From a bacterium (GTDB lineage Bacteria > Eisenbacteria > RBG-16-71-46 > CAIMUX01), in assembly GCA_030431975.1 (NCBI GenBank), contig JAUIHP010000010.1, positions 62,001 through 126,000 on the forward strand: DNA of 64,000 nucleotides, read 5' to 3'. Below, in pieces: positions 1,442 to 49,741 of this stretch. Under the pieces are notes generated by a model. The model did not search any database, was not told where the DNA came from, and worked only from the letters and a program-made list of their open reading frames with translations. Numbering within the stretch: position 1 is the first letter of the stretch; every line of letters starts with the position of its first letter. The position numbers and the translations under genes are program-made.

Positions 1442-2164
1442 CTAGCGGTGGACGGCCTTGATCTGTCCCCAAGAACTGTCGATCGTGGGAACGGCCACTT
1501 CCTGGTTCCCGAAGAGGAACTTGTTGATGTCGTCCTGAGCGACATCGATCGTGACGCAACAGCAGTCTTCACAGTTCGTGCACTCGTAACCGTCCTGCAG
1601 CGTTTCGCAGAGCTGGTACGTGCCGGGATCGATACCGAAGAAGCAGGCAAGTCCGTTCTCGTCGGTGAGTTCGCACATCTGGCCGCTCGGACCGTCGTAG
1701 CACATCTCCCAACCTTCGAGCAGCGGCTCGCCGCCGTCGAAGATTCCGTTGCCGTTCTCGTCATAGAACTTGACGGCACAGAGACCGGTTACTCCGCCGG
1801 CGACCAGGAACTGGCCTTCGGCGCTGGTCGTCGCGCCAGAGTCGTCAACGTAGTTGACCTGGTAGAGGTAGACACCGTCCATCACCCCTGCAGGGACGAT
1901 CCACTCGAGCGTGTACTCGGTTGCCTCCGGGAAATTCAGGTCGACGATCAACGTCCCCATCGGATCGAAGACGCGGACATTGAGATTGGACGGCGTGGTG
2001 CCGTCCGTGTCGACCAGACACGAGGCTTCCATGAAGCCTCCCGGGTTCTCGACGTGATCCGGGATGGCCGGCGACCATTCGAGCTGAATGGACGGAGCAG
2101 CCATGGCTGCAACCGGAACGGCAAGGAGACCTGCGACTGCAAGGTTCAATAGAAAGGCGCGCAT
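1442..2164 (-). CDS. Secreted Ig-like/SdrD-B protein with C-terminal WGxIK motif
   Basis: A 240-residue exported protein. The ATG at 2164 is preferred over an upstream in-frame start because it begins a typical signal peptide (residues 1-22, cleavage near AMA-A) and is preceded by an AGGGGG ribosome site. Residues 24-125 look like an Ig/FlgD-like beta domain. Residues 128-228 are an SdrD-B-like domain (FYDENGNG opening) with an unusual Cys cluster (C-x-x-C-x-x-CCC). The last 11 residues, S-S-W-G-Q-I-K-A-V-H-R, match the end of the neighbouring protein at 2246-2680 although the rest differs, so this tail may be a sorting or anchoring signal (inference). Function unknown. Confidence 0.8.
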   Translation of the reverse strand: MRAFLLNLAVAGLLAVPVAAMAAPSIQLEWSPAIPDHVENPGGFMEASCLVDTDGTTPSNLNVRVFDPMGTLIVDLNFPEATEYTLEWIVPAGVMDGVYLYQVNYVDDSGATTSAEGQFLVAGGVTGLCAVKFYDENGNGIFDGGEPLLEGWEMCYDGPSGQMCELTDENGLACFFGIDPGTYQLCETLQDGYECTNCEDCCCVTIDVAQDDINKFLFGNQEVAVPTIDSSWGQIKAVHR

Positions 2165-2245
2165 GTTGGGATCAACCCCCTTAGACAGGTGTCTGAGTCC
2201 GCGCTTCTTGCGAAGCCCCAAAAAGTAACCGCCGGACCGAGATGT

Positions 2246-2680
2246 CTAGCGGTAGATTGACTTGATGCTGCCCCAGGTCGACTTGAGAGTCGGCGTCGGG
2301 CAATCTTCATTTGTCACACCGAAGAAGACCTGCATGACGTCACCGTCAGGAAAGTCTCCAACCGTCGTGAACTGACATGGATCGTTGATCGACTCAAAGC
2401 CGTCCATCAACGTCACGCAAACTTCATACTCGCCACCCTCGAAGAGCGGAATCCAGCACGCAGCGCCGTCGACATCAGTCGTGCGGCAATCTTCATCGTT
2501 GCTGGGAGAAGTGATGCACACTTCCCATCCTTCCAGAGGGGACTCTTCCCCTTCCTGGTACTCTCCATCGCAATTGGCGTCGAAGTAAACGAAAGCACAG
2601 ATGCCGGGCGTGGCAAAAGCCGGACCTGTGGCCGAAGCGACCAGCGCCAGGGCTGCCAGCAAGCCAAAGGCTCTCTTCAT
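2246..2680 (-). CDS. Small secreted single SdrD-B-domain protein with WGxIK tail
   Basis: A 144-residue exported protein with signal peptide 1-23 (AFA-T cleavage) and one SdrD-B-like domain (about 25-128) with three Cys pairs and the FDANCDG block typical of the fold. It ends in S-T-W-G-S-I-K-S-I-Y-R, the same motif as the protein at 1442-2164. The ATG at 2680 was chosen because it starts the signal peptide; the frame stays open upstream to 2740 but that part is not signal-like. It lies 81 bp upstream of the next minus-strand gene and is probably co-transcribed. It may be a structural or matrix component; no enzymatic motif is seen. Confidence 0.75.
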   Translation of the reverse strand: MKRAFGLLAALALVASATGPAFATPGICAFVYFDANCDGEYQEGEESPLEGWEVCITSPSNDEDCRTTDVDGAACWIPLFEGGEYEVCVTLMDGFESINDPCQFTTVGDFPDGDVMQVFFGVTNEDCPTPTLKSTWGSIKSIYR

Positions 2681-41753: not shown

Positions 41754-42761
41754 TCAGGAGCCCAGATAGCCCCCGTAGACGATCTCCAGGCAGACCTCAC
41801 CGACCCGGCGGAGGCGTTCGCCGCTCAGAAACTCGGGCCGATCCTTCTGGGTGTGCCAGTTCGGATCGTCGAACCCGATCAGCACGGTCGACGGCACCCC
41901 CGCTTGCAGGAACGGGATGTGATCGTCGTACACGGTATAGGTCCGATCCGGATTGAACTCAAGGTAACCCCGGGCCCGGGCCACGCCGAATACCAGCTCG
42001 TTCCAGGCCGGAAAGGCGCCGTGAGACACGGTATCGCGGCCAAAATCCACGGTCGGCGAACCCACCATGTCCAAGACCAGCACGTAGTTGGGCGGGGTGC
42101 CCGTCCAGTGCTCGACCATGTAACGGCTGCCCAGGCAGTACTCCAGGGACCGGGTCGGGCGACCCAGGTCCTCCGCATCGAAGAAGGCCAGATCGACCCC
42201 AACAGGAGGCGGGCTCTCGGCGAACAGACGCGCCAGCTCCAGAAGTGCGGCGACGCCGGAGCCCCCGTCATTGGCGCCGGGAACCGGCATCTCGGCGAGG
42301 GCGGGATCGGATTCCTCATCGGACCAGGGTCGGGTGTCCCAGTGGGCCCCGAACAGAATCCGCGGCTCCTTCCCGGGAGAGATCCTCACGAGGAGGTTCG
42401 TAAAATCGAGTGAGTCTTCCAGGGCCGGAACCCAAAGACGGTACTCCTGACGCTCGGGCGTCCAACCCAGAGAACGGAGGCGTCCGTCCATCCACTCGAG
42501 GCACTTCGTGTGTCCGGGGCGTCCGGAGACCCGCGGACCGAACTCGACCTGGGTGCGGATGTCGGCCATGGCCCGCTCTCCGTCGAAGCTGGGAAACGCC
42601 ACCAACGGGGCCGGCAGCGCCAGACAGAGGAACAGGCCGGCCAGGATCCACCACGCAAGACGGCGGCTGCAACCGCGCGTACGAGGAGCGCCCGGAGAGG
42701 GAACGTCGGCGGTAGGAATCGGTTTTGCCCTGCTGGTCGCTTCGGACATGAGGTCACCCAT
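41754..42761 (-). CDS. M28 zinc peptidase / glutaminyl cyclase-like protein
   Basis: A 335-residue exported protein. After a positively charged N-region a hydrophobic stretch (about 31-50) serves as signal or anchor. The catalytic domain shows AHWDTRPWSDEE, PGANDGGSGVAALLELAR, FFDAEDLG and CLGSRYM, the layout of M28-fold glutaminyl-peptide cyclotransferases more than of aminopeptidases; the late H-T-Q-K-D is also kept. N-terminal pyroglutamate formation on secreted proteins is likely; peptidase activity is the alternative. ATG at 42761 overlaps the SprA-like stop (TGATG). Confidence 0.83.
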   Translation of the reverse strand: MGDLMSEATSRAKPIPTADVPSPGAPRTRGCSRRLAWWILAGLFLCLALPAPLVAFPSFDGERAMADIRTQVEFGPRVSGRPGHTKCLEWMDGRLRSLGWTPERQEYRLWVPALEDSLDFTNLLVRISPGKEPRILFGAHWDTRPWSDEESDPALAEMPVPGANDGGSGVAALLELARLFAESPPPVGVDLAFFDAEDLGRPTRSLEYCLGSRYMVEHWTGTPPNYVLVLDMVGSPTVDFGRDTVSHGAFPAWNELVFGVARARGYLEFNPDRTYTVYDDHIPFLQAGVPSTVLIGFDDPNWHTQKDRPEFLSGERLRRVGEVCLEIVYGGYLGS

Positions 42762-45700
42762 CAGAAGTTGAAGCTGGCCGAGACGGAGATCTCGATGAAG
42801 CGTTGCGTGTTCGCGTTGTTCTTGCGGTCTTTGTCCTGGCCAAACTCGACTCGGGCCACACCATTGATGCGCTCGGTGAAGCCGTAGTTCGTAGAACCAT
42901 TGAAGGAGACCCGGACGTTGTCGCTCGCCACCTGGCCGCGACCGCCCGCCTGTACCGTCTCCTGCTTGGTCGCGCTCCAATCCGCACCGCCCGTGATGTC
43001 CATGCGCGTCGTTACCATGCGGGACTGGCTCGAGCCCGGAATCTTCACGCGTTTGCGAAGGTTGATCGTCTTCTTCACCGTCAGCCCGGCGCGCTTGTTC
43101 GAGTTCGTCTGCGTCGATCGGGACGGAAAGAAACGGTCCGTCACGGTCGTCGATGACGAGCTGTTGAGCGTCGCCTGCATTCCGTTCTCGAGGGTCGCTC
43201 GGATGTCGAGCAGCGGTGAAAGGTCCGTCGTGACGCGAAGGTCGTTCGCTCCTTCGTTGCGCCGACGGGAGTAACGCGTCTTGGCCGTAAAGCTCTTCAG
43301 CTTGAGCAGCCGCTCCAGACCCAGCTTCTTGTGGACATCGCCCCAGGTGATATCCAGGTCGGGCCAGGTCCGTTCGTACGTCGTCGTCGTTTGGCCGTTG
43401 CTGAGGCCCTTTGTTTCGCGGGATGAGTAACTCGTCTTGACGCTCGCCCGGAGTGGTAGCCGGATGTTCGTATCAAAGCGCCAGTTCTGTCCCTCCGACG
43501 TGCTCGAAGACGCCCCCCGCAGGGACCTCGTGTCTCCTCCCAGAACCGTGTCCAATCCCAACTGATAGACGAGGTCCGGCTCGCCCTTTCTCTGCGGGTA
43601 GGACGAGCTGTTGCTGATGCTGTACGACGCGCTGATCGGATCGATCGAGAATCGCTGGGCGCCGGGCCGTCGCGACCGGGTCGGCGTCGCCGAGGAGTCC
43701 TCTTCCCCGCCAAAGAAAGGAAGGTCCTTGAAGAAGTTTGCCACTTCCTTGGGATCAATTCGTCCGCTGACGCTGGTCGTATTGTTGTTGCTGTAGGAGT
43801 TGGAGCGGTCCGGCTCGTCCAGGTCTCCCGAGTAGTTGTTGGCAAAGGAAAGATTCGAACCGCTGTTCCAATTGACGCGGGGTCCGAGCAGCCGTCTCAT
43901 GATTGGAATCTCGTAGTTTGCCGAAAGGTTCTGCGCGCGAGACCGTTCTCGACCCAAGCCCAGTCCACCGACCCGGGTCTGGTTCTCTTTCAGGTTCAGG
44001 TCTCGTCCGCTCGAGATGTCGTAGGTCACGGACCGGATCGGTTGTGCCTTGGCGTTGAGCCCAAGAGTCGCCGACTTCGAGTCGGTTCCGGCAACTCGAC
44101 TGTACTCACTGGCCAGGTTGCTTCGGGTGTAGCGTTCCTTGTCCGTACGGGCTGCGCTCAGGTTCCAACCCAACTGGGTCGGAAGGAAATTGAGTTCCGA
44201 GTTCTTGAAGAGTCCCAAGGGACCGTTTCCGATGCGCACCTTTCCCGCGTCCTGAAGACCCAGGGACCACCGAACGCTCCCGGACCTTCGAACGGTCGTG
44301 TCGCGCACGGTCGGACTCCGATCGATGCTGTGCGAGTATTCCGCGCTCATCGAGAACGGATCGACCATGTATTTCATCCAGGGGTTTTCGGACTGTCGTT
44401 TGCTGTAGGAGAACCGGTAGTTCTCTTCACTGCTCTCACTGATGTCCCTGTCCGTGGCCGTCTCCAGAACGAGATCGCTGTTCGTCTGAAACTTCGGCAC
44501 GCTCTTGTCCCGGCGAACGGAAACATTGAGGGGCAGGATCAGCCCACGACCTTCGACGAACTTCTCCAGGTTGAATCGTCCGGACGAATTGAAACTGGTC
44601 TTGGTCGTTCCACTTCCCCGTTCGGAACCGATGCGGAGGAAGTCCGCCCCGGTCCGGTCGAGGTTCATGTTGACGCTACCGAAGTCGGAGAGGGTCACGT
44701 TCATCTCGGCACGGGAGGCCAGACCGCGATCCTTCTTCACTCCGTTCAGCCGAAGCTCGTTGACCCAAACGCTTCCTTCCCGGAGCGGTGTTCGCCCGAC
44801 GTTCTCGACGGAAAAAGTGATGCGCTTGATGTCGTTGAGACTGGGTTGTCCCTTCCGCGAAATACTGACCCCGTCCCCCAGCGACTGGGCAACAACGCCA
44901 CTCAGGGAGTCGGGTTCCTCCAACTGAAGTTGCGAAAGCGCGGCCAGGTCGACCGTCGCCAGTCGCCATCGGTCGGGTACCGGCATCGTGTACTCGTAGT
45001 AGTTGGTGGTCTCGGAGTTGGCATCCCGGCTCAGCCGCACCGAAAAAAGAAGATCCGCCTCTCCGGAAACAATCTGACTGTTGATGAAGAACTGCATCTC
45101 TTCGTAGAGGGTGGCGAAGTTCTGGGCTCGGGTGTACGTGCGGTAGGCCGAGGCGCGGTGCCCCGGCTGAAAGTTCCGCAGCTCGAGCGCGATGGACTGC
45201 TCCCGTTCCTCGGTGTTGTCGTCGGTTCTTTCTCCCGGATCAAAGGGAGGGTCGTAGACGGCCGTGTCATCCTTGTTGTTGCGAACGCCGACGAAGAAGT
45301 CCTCTCCCGGAGACAGCTCGGCCGGGTCCAGAGGTTCGTCCTGCAGGTTCGTAATCGGATTTTCCAACCAACGGTTTCCGATGATCTCGATGCCGCCGAT
45401 CTGGATGCGCTCGAAGGCGTCGGAAAAACCGGTGAACCACATGCGCGCGTGGAAGATTCTTTCCCAGTCGGGATCGACGGAGCCGGACTTGAGAATCTGG
45501 ACCAACTCCTCATTGGCCAGAGAAACCCGGATCCGCCGCCAACCGCTGGAGTCGGCCGGAGTTTGGCTCAGCCCTTCGCACGGCGCGCACTCCAGAACGA
45601 AGTCCCGGCGAACGTCGGTTTCCCAAAGCGTCTCGTCGGCGAGATCGAGTTCGATCTCGAAGTAGTTGCTGACGTCGTCGACGCGACCACCACCGTCGAA

Positions 45701-48700
45701 GTCTTCCGTGTCCAGAAGTTGGTTCCCCTCCGTTCCGTTGATCTGCCGGAACTGAATGGGCTGGTACTCACCGTCGTTGAACGCGTCGCTGTCCTCGAAG
45801 GCGTAGTTGTCGAAGGGATCATCACCCGGCTGGCCGTTCTCGACGAAGTCGAGGCCGATGTCCTCGTTGTACTCGTCGCTGAGGTCGAGCGTCCCGTCTC
45901 CCTCGCCAATCTCACTTCGGTCTTCTGTATCCAGTTCTCCGTTCGGCGGCACGACGCGCCAGGTCGACTGATCGGCAAAGACGTCGTTCCGGGTCCAGGC
46001 TGCGTCCTCGCTGATGAAACCGAGTTCGATGTAGAGCTTGCCTTCGCGCTCCGACCGATCCTGATAGGGAACTCCGTCGTTGATCCAGATGTCGAGGAAC
46101 TGGGCCGACGACAGATTGATCCCCGATGCGGAGAGCGGCTGCGTCAGTCCGATCCAGGACTGCCGACGTTCTTCGTCGGTTTGCCCTTTCGGCGCGAAGA
46201 AGACCTCCAGCATCTGCCGGTTGTCGTCACCCTCGCGCTCTTCGAGCGTCGGTTTCAGGTCGTACTCCTGCAACGCCCGGCGCGGTGTATACCAAAGAAG
46301 CTCGCCCCGACGGGCCGTGGCCAGCGAATCCGTCGTTTCCTCCTGCTTGATGCGGAGAGGAATACTCGGCATCCGCCAGGCTCGACGGTTCAGCGAAAGA
46401 CTGAGAACATCCTTGGCCCCTTCGAAGTCATCCACATAGAGCTGGTTCCGGGTGTTCGGATTCGGGATCGAGATCCCAAGCCCACCTTCCAGCTCGAGCC
46501 GTGACTGTTCGCGCGCGTCCATGAACGGAATCTTGTCCATGACGTCCGTGATGAGCCAGGAGTCCGTTTGATACTGACCGGCAAACTCGCCGACCAGAGT
46601 ACGTGACGGTTCTTCACCCAGGCGCGGCCTGCGGCCCTCGTTACCCGGAGCTCCACCTTTGCTTTCGAAGAGCCAGGTCGAAGAGAAGTTCCACTTTGCG
46701 TTGTCGGGACGGACGAAGGCGGCGATCCCGGCGAGAGTCTTTTGTCCTCCCCCGCCGCCGAAGGGTACGTGGGAGTAACTGACGTCGATGGCATCGGTCT
46801 CGGTGATTCCCGCAGCAGGAAGGATGTCGATGACGCCCGAGTCGTAGTCGATACGGTAGTCCCGGTCGCGCTGCAGGCGGCGACCGTTGGCCGTGACCAC
46901 CTCGCTGCCTTCCAGGATGTTGAACGCGTCGAGTCGGATGTTGCTGACCGGACTCCGGTAGGTCACTTCCAGGAAGTAGCGGCTGAAGTCTTCGACGTTG
47001 GTAAAAATGTCGCGGTCGTAAATGTCGGGTGCACGAAACGTAGAATCCAGTGCAGCCCAACTCGGTCGATCTTCCTTCTGTCGATCGAGGGACGGATTGA
47101 ATCGGTAGTAGGAGAAGCCCGCGCAGTCCGCGGCTTCCTCGGCAAGATCTGTCGGGGAGGGATCGAAGGGGCGCAAGTCCGGAAGGTAGAGAAGACCTTC
47201 CGTCAGGTTGAGCCACTGCGGTTCGACTCGCTGGTCCGACCCTGGAATGAAGTTGCCGCTTTCCGTCCGTTCGGAAAGGTCCAATCCGAGTTGTTGCAGA
47301 AATGTCGTGTCGTTGGCAAGACGGTCGGGCTGGGCATCGGAACCGATCGTGGCCTTGAGACGCACCTTCATCTCAAAACCCTCGGCCAGAATGTTCGACG
47401 CCCCGAGACGATAGATGTTGCGAAGTTCCAGGTTCGCGGTCGGTCCCCACACCCCTTCGGTCAGGTCGGCTCGATTGACGCTCTGATCGGATCGGGCCTG
47501 GCGGATCATCTTCAGGTAGGGCGTGGCAGCACCACCCCCGGTTCCGACTCGAATCGGCGCGCCGAACTCCAGCAGATCGGCGCCCAGCTCGAACCCCTGG
47601 TAGGCGACGGCCAGAACATCCCGTTCTCCGAGTGACCGGTTGAGGACGAGCACCGGATGCCCCGTGTAGAGGTCGGTTTGGACTTGATACTCCGAAGTTT
47701 CCAGGTAACGGAAGTCCCCGGTGTATGCGCCTTCGCCTTCGGCAGGCTCTCCGTCGATCGTAGCGATCGCTACGATCGTTCCGTCCTCGACGTTGTTCCT
47801 TTGGTTTCCGTCGTCGATGTAGACCTCTAGCGCATCTTCACCGAGTTGCCAGGGACATCCGTCCGGGTCCCGAAGAAAGAAGTACTGCGACGAAACGAAG
47901 TTGTAGTCGTCGATCGTGATCGTTCGCACTTCCGCCTGGCTGGTAATCGACTTCGAATCGTTCCGTCCCTCCTGCTTGGAGAGGATCATGTTGAAGTCGA
48001 TGTCTCCGACCTTGGCCAGCGCGTTGATCCCGAAGAGTCCCTGCACGTTCTCGCTGAAGGTGACATAACGGGTTCCAGGCAGTCGAAGGTTCGTGTTTCC
48101 GAGGTCGACCCGCTGGATGATCTCGTCTTCGTAGCCGGTGTAGCGAATCTTGATCAGGTTGGCTAGCGGCGTGTCGCTCTCGCTCGACTGGTCGACATCG
48201 ACGGTGACCTTGTCCCCGATGGTTCCCGTGAGGTTGAGGTTGAGCCGCTGTTCCATGTTGAGCTGTGGAAACTTCGACTGCCGCCCAACGACATCGTTGG
48301 CCTGCAGATTCGGCCGCCACTGACTTCGCCCGCGGAAGCTGATCTGCTCGTTACCCGCCACAGAGAGACTGGGCTTCCCTTTTCCAAAGATGCTCTGCAA
48401 ACCGCCGGGCAACTCGAGCGGGATGTCCAGGTTGACGAGTCGGTCCTGCCGCGATTCCCGGTCCGTGCGCTTCAAGTCCTCGCGGAAGGAATCCGTCCAA
48501 AGATCGTACGTGGTCTCCTGCGTCAGTCGCCGGGTGTACTCACGCATCGACATGCGGATCTTCGGCTCGACGGCGCCCTCGCCTCCGTGAAGATGAGAGA
48601 ACTCCAGAGTTTCGTCCTCAATGTTCGGAGCCACCTGGTGGGCGACAAAGTCCTGCGACCTGAAGCGGGGGCCAAATCCGTCGACCGGGCGGAACAGCAC

Positions 48701-49591
48701 GGTATCGATCTGCGACTGCTGGCGGGGACTGAGGACGGCGGATTCGCGGAGGGTGCTTCGGGAGAGCCAGCGGTCACCGACCTCGTAGAGGAGGGCGTCA
48801 CCGACGGGCCGGGACGACTCGCGCCGGCCGAAGATCTGGAACGAGCTGCCCCCTCGAAACTCCGCACTCGTCGAGTCCGACGGGGGCGGCAGGTCGCTGA
48901 GAGAAAAGCTGGACACGATGCCGGACGCGCCCCACGGCGACGAGGTGTAGGCCCGGGAAGGCGGTGGCTCCAGAGAGTCGGCCACCTCGCCGACAAAGAG
49001 AGTGTCCGGTAGAGATTGAAGCAATGAGTCGGACAAGGATGCCCGGACCGAGTCCGGGAGCGCGGCCAGCAGTGAGTCGGTCGCGATCCCTCCCTCGGCC
49101 GGGATCAGGGAGTCCGGGATGACGTCCGCCAGGAGGCTGTCCGGCAAGTCTTCCGGCCAGATGAGATCGCGCGGGTATTGTCCCTCCGGGTCGAGGACTT
49201 CCGTGCGTGAAAGGGAGTCGGAAGGTGAGGTCTGGCGCGTTCGGAATGGACCGGAAGGTCGTTCGTCTGAGGGTCGTAGGTCTGAGGGGCTTTCGTCGGA
49301 GGGGCGTCCGTACCGGAGGAGGGACTCGTCGTCCGAGTCGGGGTCGACAGGATCTACCGATCCCGCGGAGTCGGCCGGACCTTCCTGCCCAGCCGCTTCG
49401 CCCTCCGGATCCCGCTCCCTCTCTCCCTGGCCCTCGTCCTCGACCGGTTTTCCTCCCGCGAAGATGGAGCCGCCTTTTTCAACGAAGCCGGACGTGGACC
49501 GGCCGCAACTGGCAACCAACAACGAAAGCAGAAGGAGACCTGCGGAGGCGAGAAGCGCCGAGAGCGGTATGTCCCGAAAAGTGTTTTTCAA
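42761..49591 (-). CDS. sprA: SprA-type giant outer-membrane protein
   Basis: A 2276-residue homologue of SprA/Sov, the type IX secretion channel of Bacteroidota. It has a signal peptide with lipobox-like V-A-S-C29, a disordered Ser/Asp/Pro-rich stretch (40-200), then repeated SprA blocks and a long series of beta-strand segments ending in aromatic F-N-F, as in outer-membrane barrels. GNEQISFRGRS, DVDQSSESDTPLANLIKIRYTG and YVDDFEGAKDVLSLSL are typical. The start is TTG at 49591 with no clear ribosome site, so it is uncertain. No PorV, PorU, GldKLMN or T9SS sorting domain is in the window. It is divergent from lptF. Confidence 0.88.
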   Translation of the reverse strand: MKNTFRDIPLSALLASAGLLLLSLLVASCGRSTSGFVEKGGSIFAGGKPVEDEGQGERERDPEGEAAGQEGPADSAGSVDPVDPDSDDESLLRYGRPSDESPSDLRPSDERPSGPFRTRQTSPSDSLSRTEVLDPEGQYPRDLIWPEDLPDSLLADVIPDSLIPAEGGIATDSLLAALPDSVRASLSDSLLQSLPDTLFVGEVADSLEPPPSRAYTSSPWGASGIVSSFSLSDLPPPSDSTSAEFRGGSSFQIFGRRESSRPVGDALLYEVGDRWLSRSTLRESAVLSPRQQSQIDTVLFRPVDGFGPRFRSQDFVAHQVAPNIEDETLEFSHLHGGEGAVEPKIRMSMREYTRRLTQETTYDLWTDSFREDLKRTDRESRQDRLVNLDIPLELPGGLQSIFGKGKPSLSVAGNEQISFRGRSQWRPNLQANDVVGRQSKFPQLNMEQRLNLNLTGTIGDKVTVDVDQSSESDTPLANLIKIRYTGYEDEIIQRVDLGNTNLRLPGTRYVTFSENVQGLFGINALAKVGDIDFNMILSKQEGRNDSKSITSQAEVRTITIDDYNFVSSQYFFLRDPDGCPWQLGEDALEVYIDDGNQRNNVEDGTIVAIATIDGEPAEGEGAYTGDFRYLETSEYQVQTDLYTGHPVLVLNRSLGERDVLAVAYQGFELGADLLEFGAPIRVGTGGGAATPYLKMIRQARSDQSVNRADLTEGVWGPTANLELRNIYRLGASNILAEGFEMKVRLKATIGSDAQPDRLANDTTFLQQLGLDLSERTESGNFIPGSDQRVEPQWLNLTEGLLYLPDLRPFDPSPTDLAEEAADCAGFSYYRFNPSLDRQKEDRPSWAALDSTFRAPDIYDRDIFTNVEDFSRYFLEVTYRSPVSNIRLDAFNILEGSEVVTANGRRLQRDRDYRIDYDSGVIDILPAAGITETDAIDVSYSHVPFGGGGGQKTLAGIAAFVRPDNAKWNFSSTWLFESKGGAPGNEGRRPRLGEEPSRTLVGEFAGQYQTDSWLITDVMDKIPFMDAREQSRLELEGGLGISIPNPNTRNQLYVDDFEGAKDVLSLSLNRRAWRMPSIPLRIKQEETTDSLATARRGELLWYTPRRALQEYDLKPTLEEREGDDNRQMLEVFFAPKGQTDEERRQSWIGLTQPLSASGINLSSAQFLDIWINDGVPYQDRSEREGKLYIELGFISEDAAWTRNDVFADQSTWRVVPPNGELDTEDRSEIGEGDGTLDLSDEYNEDIGLDFVENGQPGDDPFDNYAFEDSDAFNDGEYQPIQFRQINGTEGNQLLDTEDFDGGGRVDDVSNYFEIELDLADETLWETDVRRDFVLECAPCEGLSQTPADSSGWRRIRVSLANEELVQILKSGSVDPDWERIFHARMWFTGFSDAFERIQIGGIEIIGNRWLENPITNLQDEPLDPAELSPGEDFFVGVRNNKDDTAVYDPPFDPGERTDDNTEEREQSIALELRNFQPGHRASAYRTYTRAQNFATLYEEMQFFINSQIVSGEADLLFSVRLSRDANSETTNYYEYTMPVPDRWRLATVDLAALSQLQLEEPDSLSGVVAQSLGDGVSISRKGQPSLNDIKRITFSVENVGRTPLREGSVWVNELRLNGVKKDRGLASRAEMNVTLSDFGSVNMNLDRTGADFLRIGSERGSGTTKTSFNSSGRFNLEKFVEGRGLILPLNVSVRRDKSVPKFQTNSDLVLETATDRDISESSEENYRFSYSKRQSENPWMKYMVDPFSMSAEYSHSIDRSPTVRDTTVRRSGSVRWSLGLQDAGKVRIGNGPLGLFKNSELNFLPTQLGWNLSAARTDKERYTRSNLASEYSRVAGTDSKSATLGLNAKAQPIRSVTYDISSGRDLNLKENQTRVGGLGLGRERSRAQNLSANYEIPIMRRLLGPRVNWNSGSNLSFANNYSGDLDEPDRSNSYSNNNTTSVSGRIDPKEVANFFKDLPFFGGEEDSSATPTRSRRPGAQRFSIDPISASYSISNSSSYPQRKGEPDLVYQLGLDTVLGGDTRSLRGASSSTSEGQNWRFDTNIRLPLRASVKTSYSSRETKGLSNGQTTTTYERTWPDLDITWGDVHKKLGLERLLKLKSFTAKTRYSRRRNEGANDLRVTTDLSPLLDIRATLENGMQATLNSSSSTTVTDRFFPSRSTQTNSNKRAGLTVKKTINLRKRVKIPGSSQSRMVTTRMDITGGADWSATKQETVQAGGRGQVASDNVRVSFNGSTNYGFTERINGVARVEFGQDKDRKNNANTQRFIEISVSASFNF

Positions 49592-49741
49592 ATGGACTTG
49601 CCGCAGAGGGACGTTGCCGCCCCGTCGGTGTTCCCCAATCCTTGAGTGGCTATACTCCGGGCGCTCTGGAGAGTTTCGCGCGTTCCGGGGTAAGATGCAT
49701 TAAATAGGGAAGTTTGGGTCAGCTCCGTCGCCGAGGAAACC

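Follow-up and report, generated by a model that had tools for sequence, protein, structure and literature searches.

The window, a stretch of 64,000 nucleotides, contains two adjacent genes on the reverse strand whose products are exported SdrD-B-like proteins with nearly the same C-terminal ending, referred to here as the tag. Gene B (2246..2680, minus strand) lies directly upstream of gene A (1442..2164, minus strand), and the encoded proteins are 144 and 240 residues long, respectively. Each has a clear signal peptide at its N-terminus, MRAFLLNLAVAGLLAVPVAAMA in protein A (2099..2164, minus strand) and MKRAFGLLAALALVASATGPAFA in protein B (2612..2680, minus strand), with cleavage predicted at the end of each. 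The last residues of protein A are VPTIDSSWGQIKAVHR and those of protein B are TPTLKSTWGSIKSIYR, in both cases followed by the stop codon, and both endings fit W-G-x-I-K-x-x-[YH]-R. Together with their stop codons, the tags occupy 1442..1489 in gene A (PTIDSSWGQIKAVHR) and 2246..2293 in gene B (PTLKSTWGSIKSIYR), both on the minus strand. The initial annotation had described two exported SdrD-B-like proteins with near-identical ends at the stop codon, and both termini are exactly so.

The SdrD-B portions of A and B match Pfam PF17210 with E values of 3.5e-6 and 4e-4, below the gathering score. These matches do not reach the ending: they run to residue 201 in A, of 240 in all, and to residue 96 in B, of 144, and the tag therefore lies outside the SdrD-B match, which contradicts the possibility that the motif is part of the SdrD-B fold. 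The two proteins are paralogous, with 40% identity over the SdrD-B part, and L024, another tagged protein of this genome, is a further paralogue of both. A weak match to TIGR04183, the type A domain of T9SS, occurs in the middle of protein A rather than at the tag (E 0.037, 14 bits against a cut-off of 23). The structural model of protein A, built with few homologues, has a mean pLDDT of 50 and is unusable. A further SdrD-B-like protein is encoded at 36-1238 on the plus strand of the window, convergent with both tagged genes; it has three SdrD-B matches and ends in PTPPPTLP, with neither the tag nor a recognised sorting domain.

The C-terminal ending across the phylum

DNA was searched for the pattern W-G-x-[hydrophobic]-K-x-x-x-R-stop, with the reversed pattern as control, in a phylum sample of 47 genomes from one class and 11 families (f1-f11), the window's genome being G000 (6.19 Mb). 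The window contains two matches against none expected from 100 shuffles, its genome 27 against none for the reversed pattern, and the 47 genomes together 724 against 10, with at least one match in 45 of them. Genomes of families f1-f10 mostly hold 5-42 matches each and those of family f11 hold 0-4, and nearly all of the f11 loci that were read are genuine tags on exported proteins. Once copies followed by a few extra residues are counted, the window's genome encodes about 40 tagged proteins. The ending is real, and throughout the phylum each genome has dozens of exported proteins that share it and little else. The tagged proteins of family f11 (G038-G046) are mainly choice-of-anchor V and lamin-tail proteins, and these genomes retain many type A domains.

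From 138 distinct tails we derive the consensus P-[TVA]-x-x-[ST]-[ST]-W-G-x-[ILV]-K-x-x-[YF]-R, followed by 0-9 residues. The W, G, K and R are fixed by the search, but positions -1 (S/T, 96%), -6 (P, 75%) and +7 (Y/F, 93%), counted from the W, are conserved although the main search left them free. Among the 42 core matches in the window's genome, 27 stand directly at a stop codon and 15 do not; in 12 of these 15 the stop follows 1-9 residues downstream, the exceptions being L140 (stop 20 residues on), L138 (23 residues on, in a short frame) and L136 (in a long frame that runs on). In G006 and G007 a further seven copies were read, all ending 1-4 residues past the core. The claim of the initial annotation that the tag sits right at the stop codon thus holds for most copies and fails for a sizeable minority with 1-9 extra residues.

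The codons for the invariant Lys and for the Tyr are used in the tag as they are in the rest of each gene, and any of the three stop codons can follow it, so that selection acts on the peptide. Arg codons in the tag differ mildly from those in the gene bodies (p 0.002). Of 139 tagged genes, 81 stop with TAG, and the bodies of tagged proteins are poor in Lys (314 Lys to 1064 Arg), the Lys of the tag itself being demanded by the search.

Of the 121 tagged frames whose 5' end is complete, 100 passed a rule-based test for a signal peptide, compared with 7 of the 45 long ORFs taken from the window, and this pairing of a Sec signal peptide with a C-terminal signal is the one found in T9SS cargo. By eye, the 21 frames that failed the rule comprise about 11 with missed signal peptides and about 10 fragments or shifted frames. 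Several tagged proteins are likely lipoproteins, among them L021, L038, L057 and L117. The question raised in the initial annotation, whether nearly all proteins of the genome with the ending have signal peptides, is answered in favour of a tag, with 27 matches at the stop and a signal peptide on the great majority of tagged proteins; nor is the ending confined to two close paralogues, as many unrelated proteins carry it, though A and B are themselves paralogous.

With the shared ends removed, the bodies of 137 tagged proteins fall into 41 single-linkage groups, eight of them supplied by the window's genome. The largest group has 84 members, chained through Cys-rich GACC repeats and beta-helices, and passenger diversity is, by this clustering, real but uneven. 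Domains found on tagged proteins include beta-helix, lamin-tail, starch-binding, WD40-like propeller, nidogen-like and choice-of-anchor E, J and V domains. The median length from stop to stop is 320 residues for tagged proteins and 749 for the listed type A carriers, a comparison that is only indicative, the latter set being a best-scoring subset.

A core carrier is a lamin-tail-domain protein that 37 of the 47 genomes encode, essentially once each; in the window's genome its gene lies about 13 kb past the end of the window (G000:C49:139252-139839; orthologues L197-L226). The C-terminal core W-G-x-[ILVM]-K is present in 27 of 31 copies read, and the other four consist of three near-variants (WGRLRTIYR, WSGVKGLFR and WGHVRAIYR) and one copy broken by N. 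The surroundings of this gene hold housekeeping genes only, with no candidate enzyme or receptor. A model of the lamin-tail protein built with 25 orthologues (mean pLDDT 88) has a folded body, a coil at about 183-205 and a helix at 206-215 that corresponds to the tag; confidence in the helix is moderate (pLDDT about 67-75). In this model the S/T at position -1 would cap the helix, and W, I and Y would line up on one side of it. No chain in the Protein Data Bank matched the tag profile.

Type A domains and the choice-of-anchor V family

Matches to SprA, the T9SS translocon, lie at 43757..48571 on the minus strand of the window (G000:C49:105757-110571), within the ORF 42761-49699, making this a possible, unproven exit channel for tagged proteins. 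SprA was detected in 46 of the 47 genomes and C25 peptidases in all 47; a C25 peptidase match is not specific to PorU. The type A domain (TIGR04183) is likewise present in all 47 genomes, with at least 97 matches in that of the window, and the implication of the initial annotation that the organism lacks T9SS sorting domains is therefore wrong, these matches coming besides SprA and the C25 peptidases. None of 99 tagged proteins scanned matched TIGR04183 or any other recognised C-terminal sorting or CTERM model. As judged from sequence, the tag is a second signal alongside the standard T9SS type A signal. The two are not coupled in number, as genomes of family f11 hold 9-83 type A domains against 0-4 tags. 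Since T9SS parts and the tag are both near-universal in the phylum, phylogenetic profiling there cannot separate candidate readers.

The choice-of-anchor V domain of NCBI is, as its name indicates, one that occurs with differing C-terminal anchors. We found 26 loci encoding it in the phylum and classified their ends by eye against clear sequence features: 16 end in the tag, including close variants (WGAIKQLFVR, WGQVKVRYEK and WGKIKTRFH), 10 end in a type A domain, and none has both or neither. In four genomes (G000, G019, G027 and G035) both types of end are present on separate anchor V proteins. The readable ends of choice-of-anchor J proteins are mostly type A, with one tag. No other evidence speaks as strongly for the tag as an alternative sorting signal as this exchange on anchor V proteins. 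The tag also shows the features general to C-terminal sorting tags, being short, carried by many unrelated exported passengers and interchangeable with a known anchor. The proposal that it represents an undescribed substrate tag is accordingly well supported by its phylum-wide occurrence on signal-peptide proteins with unrelated bodies and by its replacement of type A on anchor V proteins.

A comparison of the tag with known sorting signals shows both resemblances and clear disparities. Like the tag, the type A domain (TIGR04183, Por_Secre_tail) is C-terminal on signal-peptide proteins, has a basic last residue and sits on the choice-of-anchor V family in the same genomes. It is, however, a beta-structured domain of about 72 positions, whereas the tag has about 15 residues and is modelled, with moderate confidence and in a lamin-tail orthologue, as a helix; the Ig-like beta-sandwich of about 70-80 residues that marks type A is absent from it. 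Closer in size are the short T9SS domains of Prevotella intermedia, which have 40-55 residues, three strands and the motifs B (G, Y), D (GxY) and E (PMC11969387). These share with the tag a shortened C-terminal signal and conserved terminal basic residues, but the tag is shorter still, with neither motif B nor motif D visible in it. In Porphyromonas HBP35 the last 22 residues are required for secretion of GFP, as cited in PMC11969387 and PMC11285876, and by that account T9SS can depend, as it would with the tag, on a very short C-terminal stretch; unlike the tag, the stretch in HBP35 belongs to a larger domain, of which it makes up the final two beta-strands. The PEP-CTERM/exosortase and GlyGly-CTERM/rhombosortase systems also put a single short tag on numerous unrelated exported proteins in each genome, but their signals consist of a transmembrane helix and a basic tail, and the tag described here has no transmembrane segment (PMC1569441, PMC3237569). 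Nor does it have the make-up of PEP-CTERM, GlyGly-CTERM or LPXTG signals in what follows its core, as 0 to about 9 residues come after the R in nearly all copies. The NCBIfam choice-of-anchor V, E and J families have varied C-terminal anchors and occur here with the tag, which itself matches no Pfam or NCBIfam model. A literature search for the literal tag strings, with subscription literature outside its scope, returned no paper, and on these two grounds we cautiously treat the tag as undescribed.

Carriers in the Bacteroidota

The Y/F form of the pattern was also searched in 198 genomes of the Bacteroidota, the phylum of Zunongwangia, giving 52 matches in 50 genomes against eight for the reversed pattern; the Zunongwangia genome itself had no match to this form. 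Six matches were inspected, of which two are chance occurrences and the rest belong to one exported FN3-like protein of about 135 residues that ends in TWGSIKALFR or similar, following the pattern TWG[SM][IL]K[AE][LM]FR (L292-L309 and L311). This protein had no good match among Pfam and NCBIfam families. The same family is present, once each, in 19 of 20 Bacteroidota neighbourhoods with partly conserved gene order, and these contain Maf and other housekeeping genes with no candidate machine. In four of the genomes a neighbouring protein of about 545 residues has an end resembling a type A domain; type A-like ends are thus encoded in at least four stretches with the FN3-like gene, and T9SS features co-occur with it. 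Many Bacteroidota genomes lack the tag, so that T9SS alone does not predict its presence. Its strong conservation in certain lineages of the Bacteroidota hints that the FN3-like protein has a core role.

Candidate readers of the tag

We consider the W-G-x-I-K-x-x-Y-R ending to be, on balance, a short C-terminal sorting signal whose likeliest reader is T9SS or an accessory of it. A tagged protein would cross the inner membrane by Sec, using its predicted signal peptide, and a periplasmic receptor would then bind the exposed tag, which, as modelled in one orthologue, would take the form of a flexible Pro/Thr-rich linker followed by a nine-residue amphipathic helix capped by Ser/Thr. The receptor would pass the protein on to an outer-membrane export or surface-attachment step, and the tag would in this way do the job of the type A domain of about 75 residues, mostly for smaller cargo. 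T9SS or its accessory is suggested as the reader because every tag-rich genome examined has T9SS features, an argument that could be wrong. It is also the most economical reader, since its parts are near-universal together with the tag and since the 22 residues of HBP35 and the 40-55-residue domains of Prevotella provide precedents for short signals.

A dedicated and undescribed receptor or anchoring machine, acting independently of T9SS and sending tagged proteins to a different destination from type A proteins, is a serious if less probable rival, because the tag lacks the fold and motifs of T9SS domains and its numbers do not follow those of type A. The modelled helix resembles no T9SS domain, the counts of tag and type A vary independently, and both signals occur on sister anchor V proteins within each of the four genomes named above, as would be expected of two destinations; however, no candidate for such a machine was found, and T9SS features are present in every genome of the phylum. 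We put forward only tentatively the reading that an undescribed sorting system, parallel to T9SS and with its own receptor, uses the tag to recognise its substrates across the phylum and in some Bacteroidota lineages, where a single-copy exported protein is the sole carrier. It is unlikely that the tag is not an export signal at all but a helix that binds membrane or surface and keeps proteins, once exported, on the outer membrane, lipopolysaccharide or peptidoglycan. The aromatic, aliphatic and basic residues gathered on one short helix would suit such a role, as would the several lipoprotein-like tagged proteins, although a second anchor would be superfluous on lipoproteins, W, G, K and R keep a tighter, invariant spacing than binding to a membrane would demand, and on anchor V proteins the tag stands in for an export signal.

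The remaining explanations are considerably less probable. A signal read by a tail-specific protease or a quality-control factor in the periplasm would be expected at the extreme C-terminus and to include hydrophobic and aromatic residues, as the tag does, but the tolerance of 0-9 residues after the R and the conservation of the tag on a near-universal single-copy protein make this improbable. We give hardly any weight to an element that works as nucleic acid or in translation at the 3' end of the gene, or to a ribosome-arrest peptide: most copies do adjoin the stop codon, but up to nine codons can intervene, the codons and stop codons vary, and the tag is found almost only on exported proteins. 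Simple descent of a single gene family with a conserved end is just as difficult to credit; the two window proteins are paralogues and many bodies chain into one group through Cys-rich repeats and beta-helices, yet there are 41 body groups, and lamin-tail, beta-helix, choice-of-anchor E, J and V, starch-binding and propeller proteins all carry the tag.

If the tag is a sorting signal, it would predict a destination for tens of proteins per genome throughout the phylum, most of them unannotated. A soluble tag of 15 residues that replaces a domain of 75 would test what T9SS must recognise or, alternatively, would show that another route of export or anchoring exists alongside T9SS. The motif is easily searched, and the single-copy carrier in the Bacteroidota may give access to it through culturable relatives.

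Three scans of viral contigs gave ten matches, of which about eight represent tagged proteins; several of these have a signal peptide. One of these, a signal-peptide protein ending in ATWGQVKNQYR, is encoded on a phage contig (L167:1182-1790, IMGVR_UViG_3300017527_000260) among phage replication genes for RusA, a replisome organiser and exonucleases. At least one phage thus carries a tagged exported protein, a putative cargo for the sorting route of its host.
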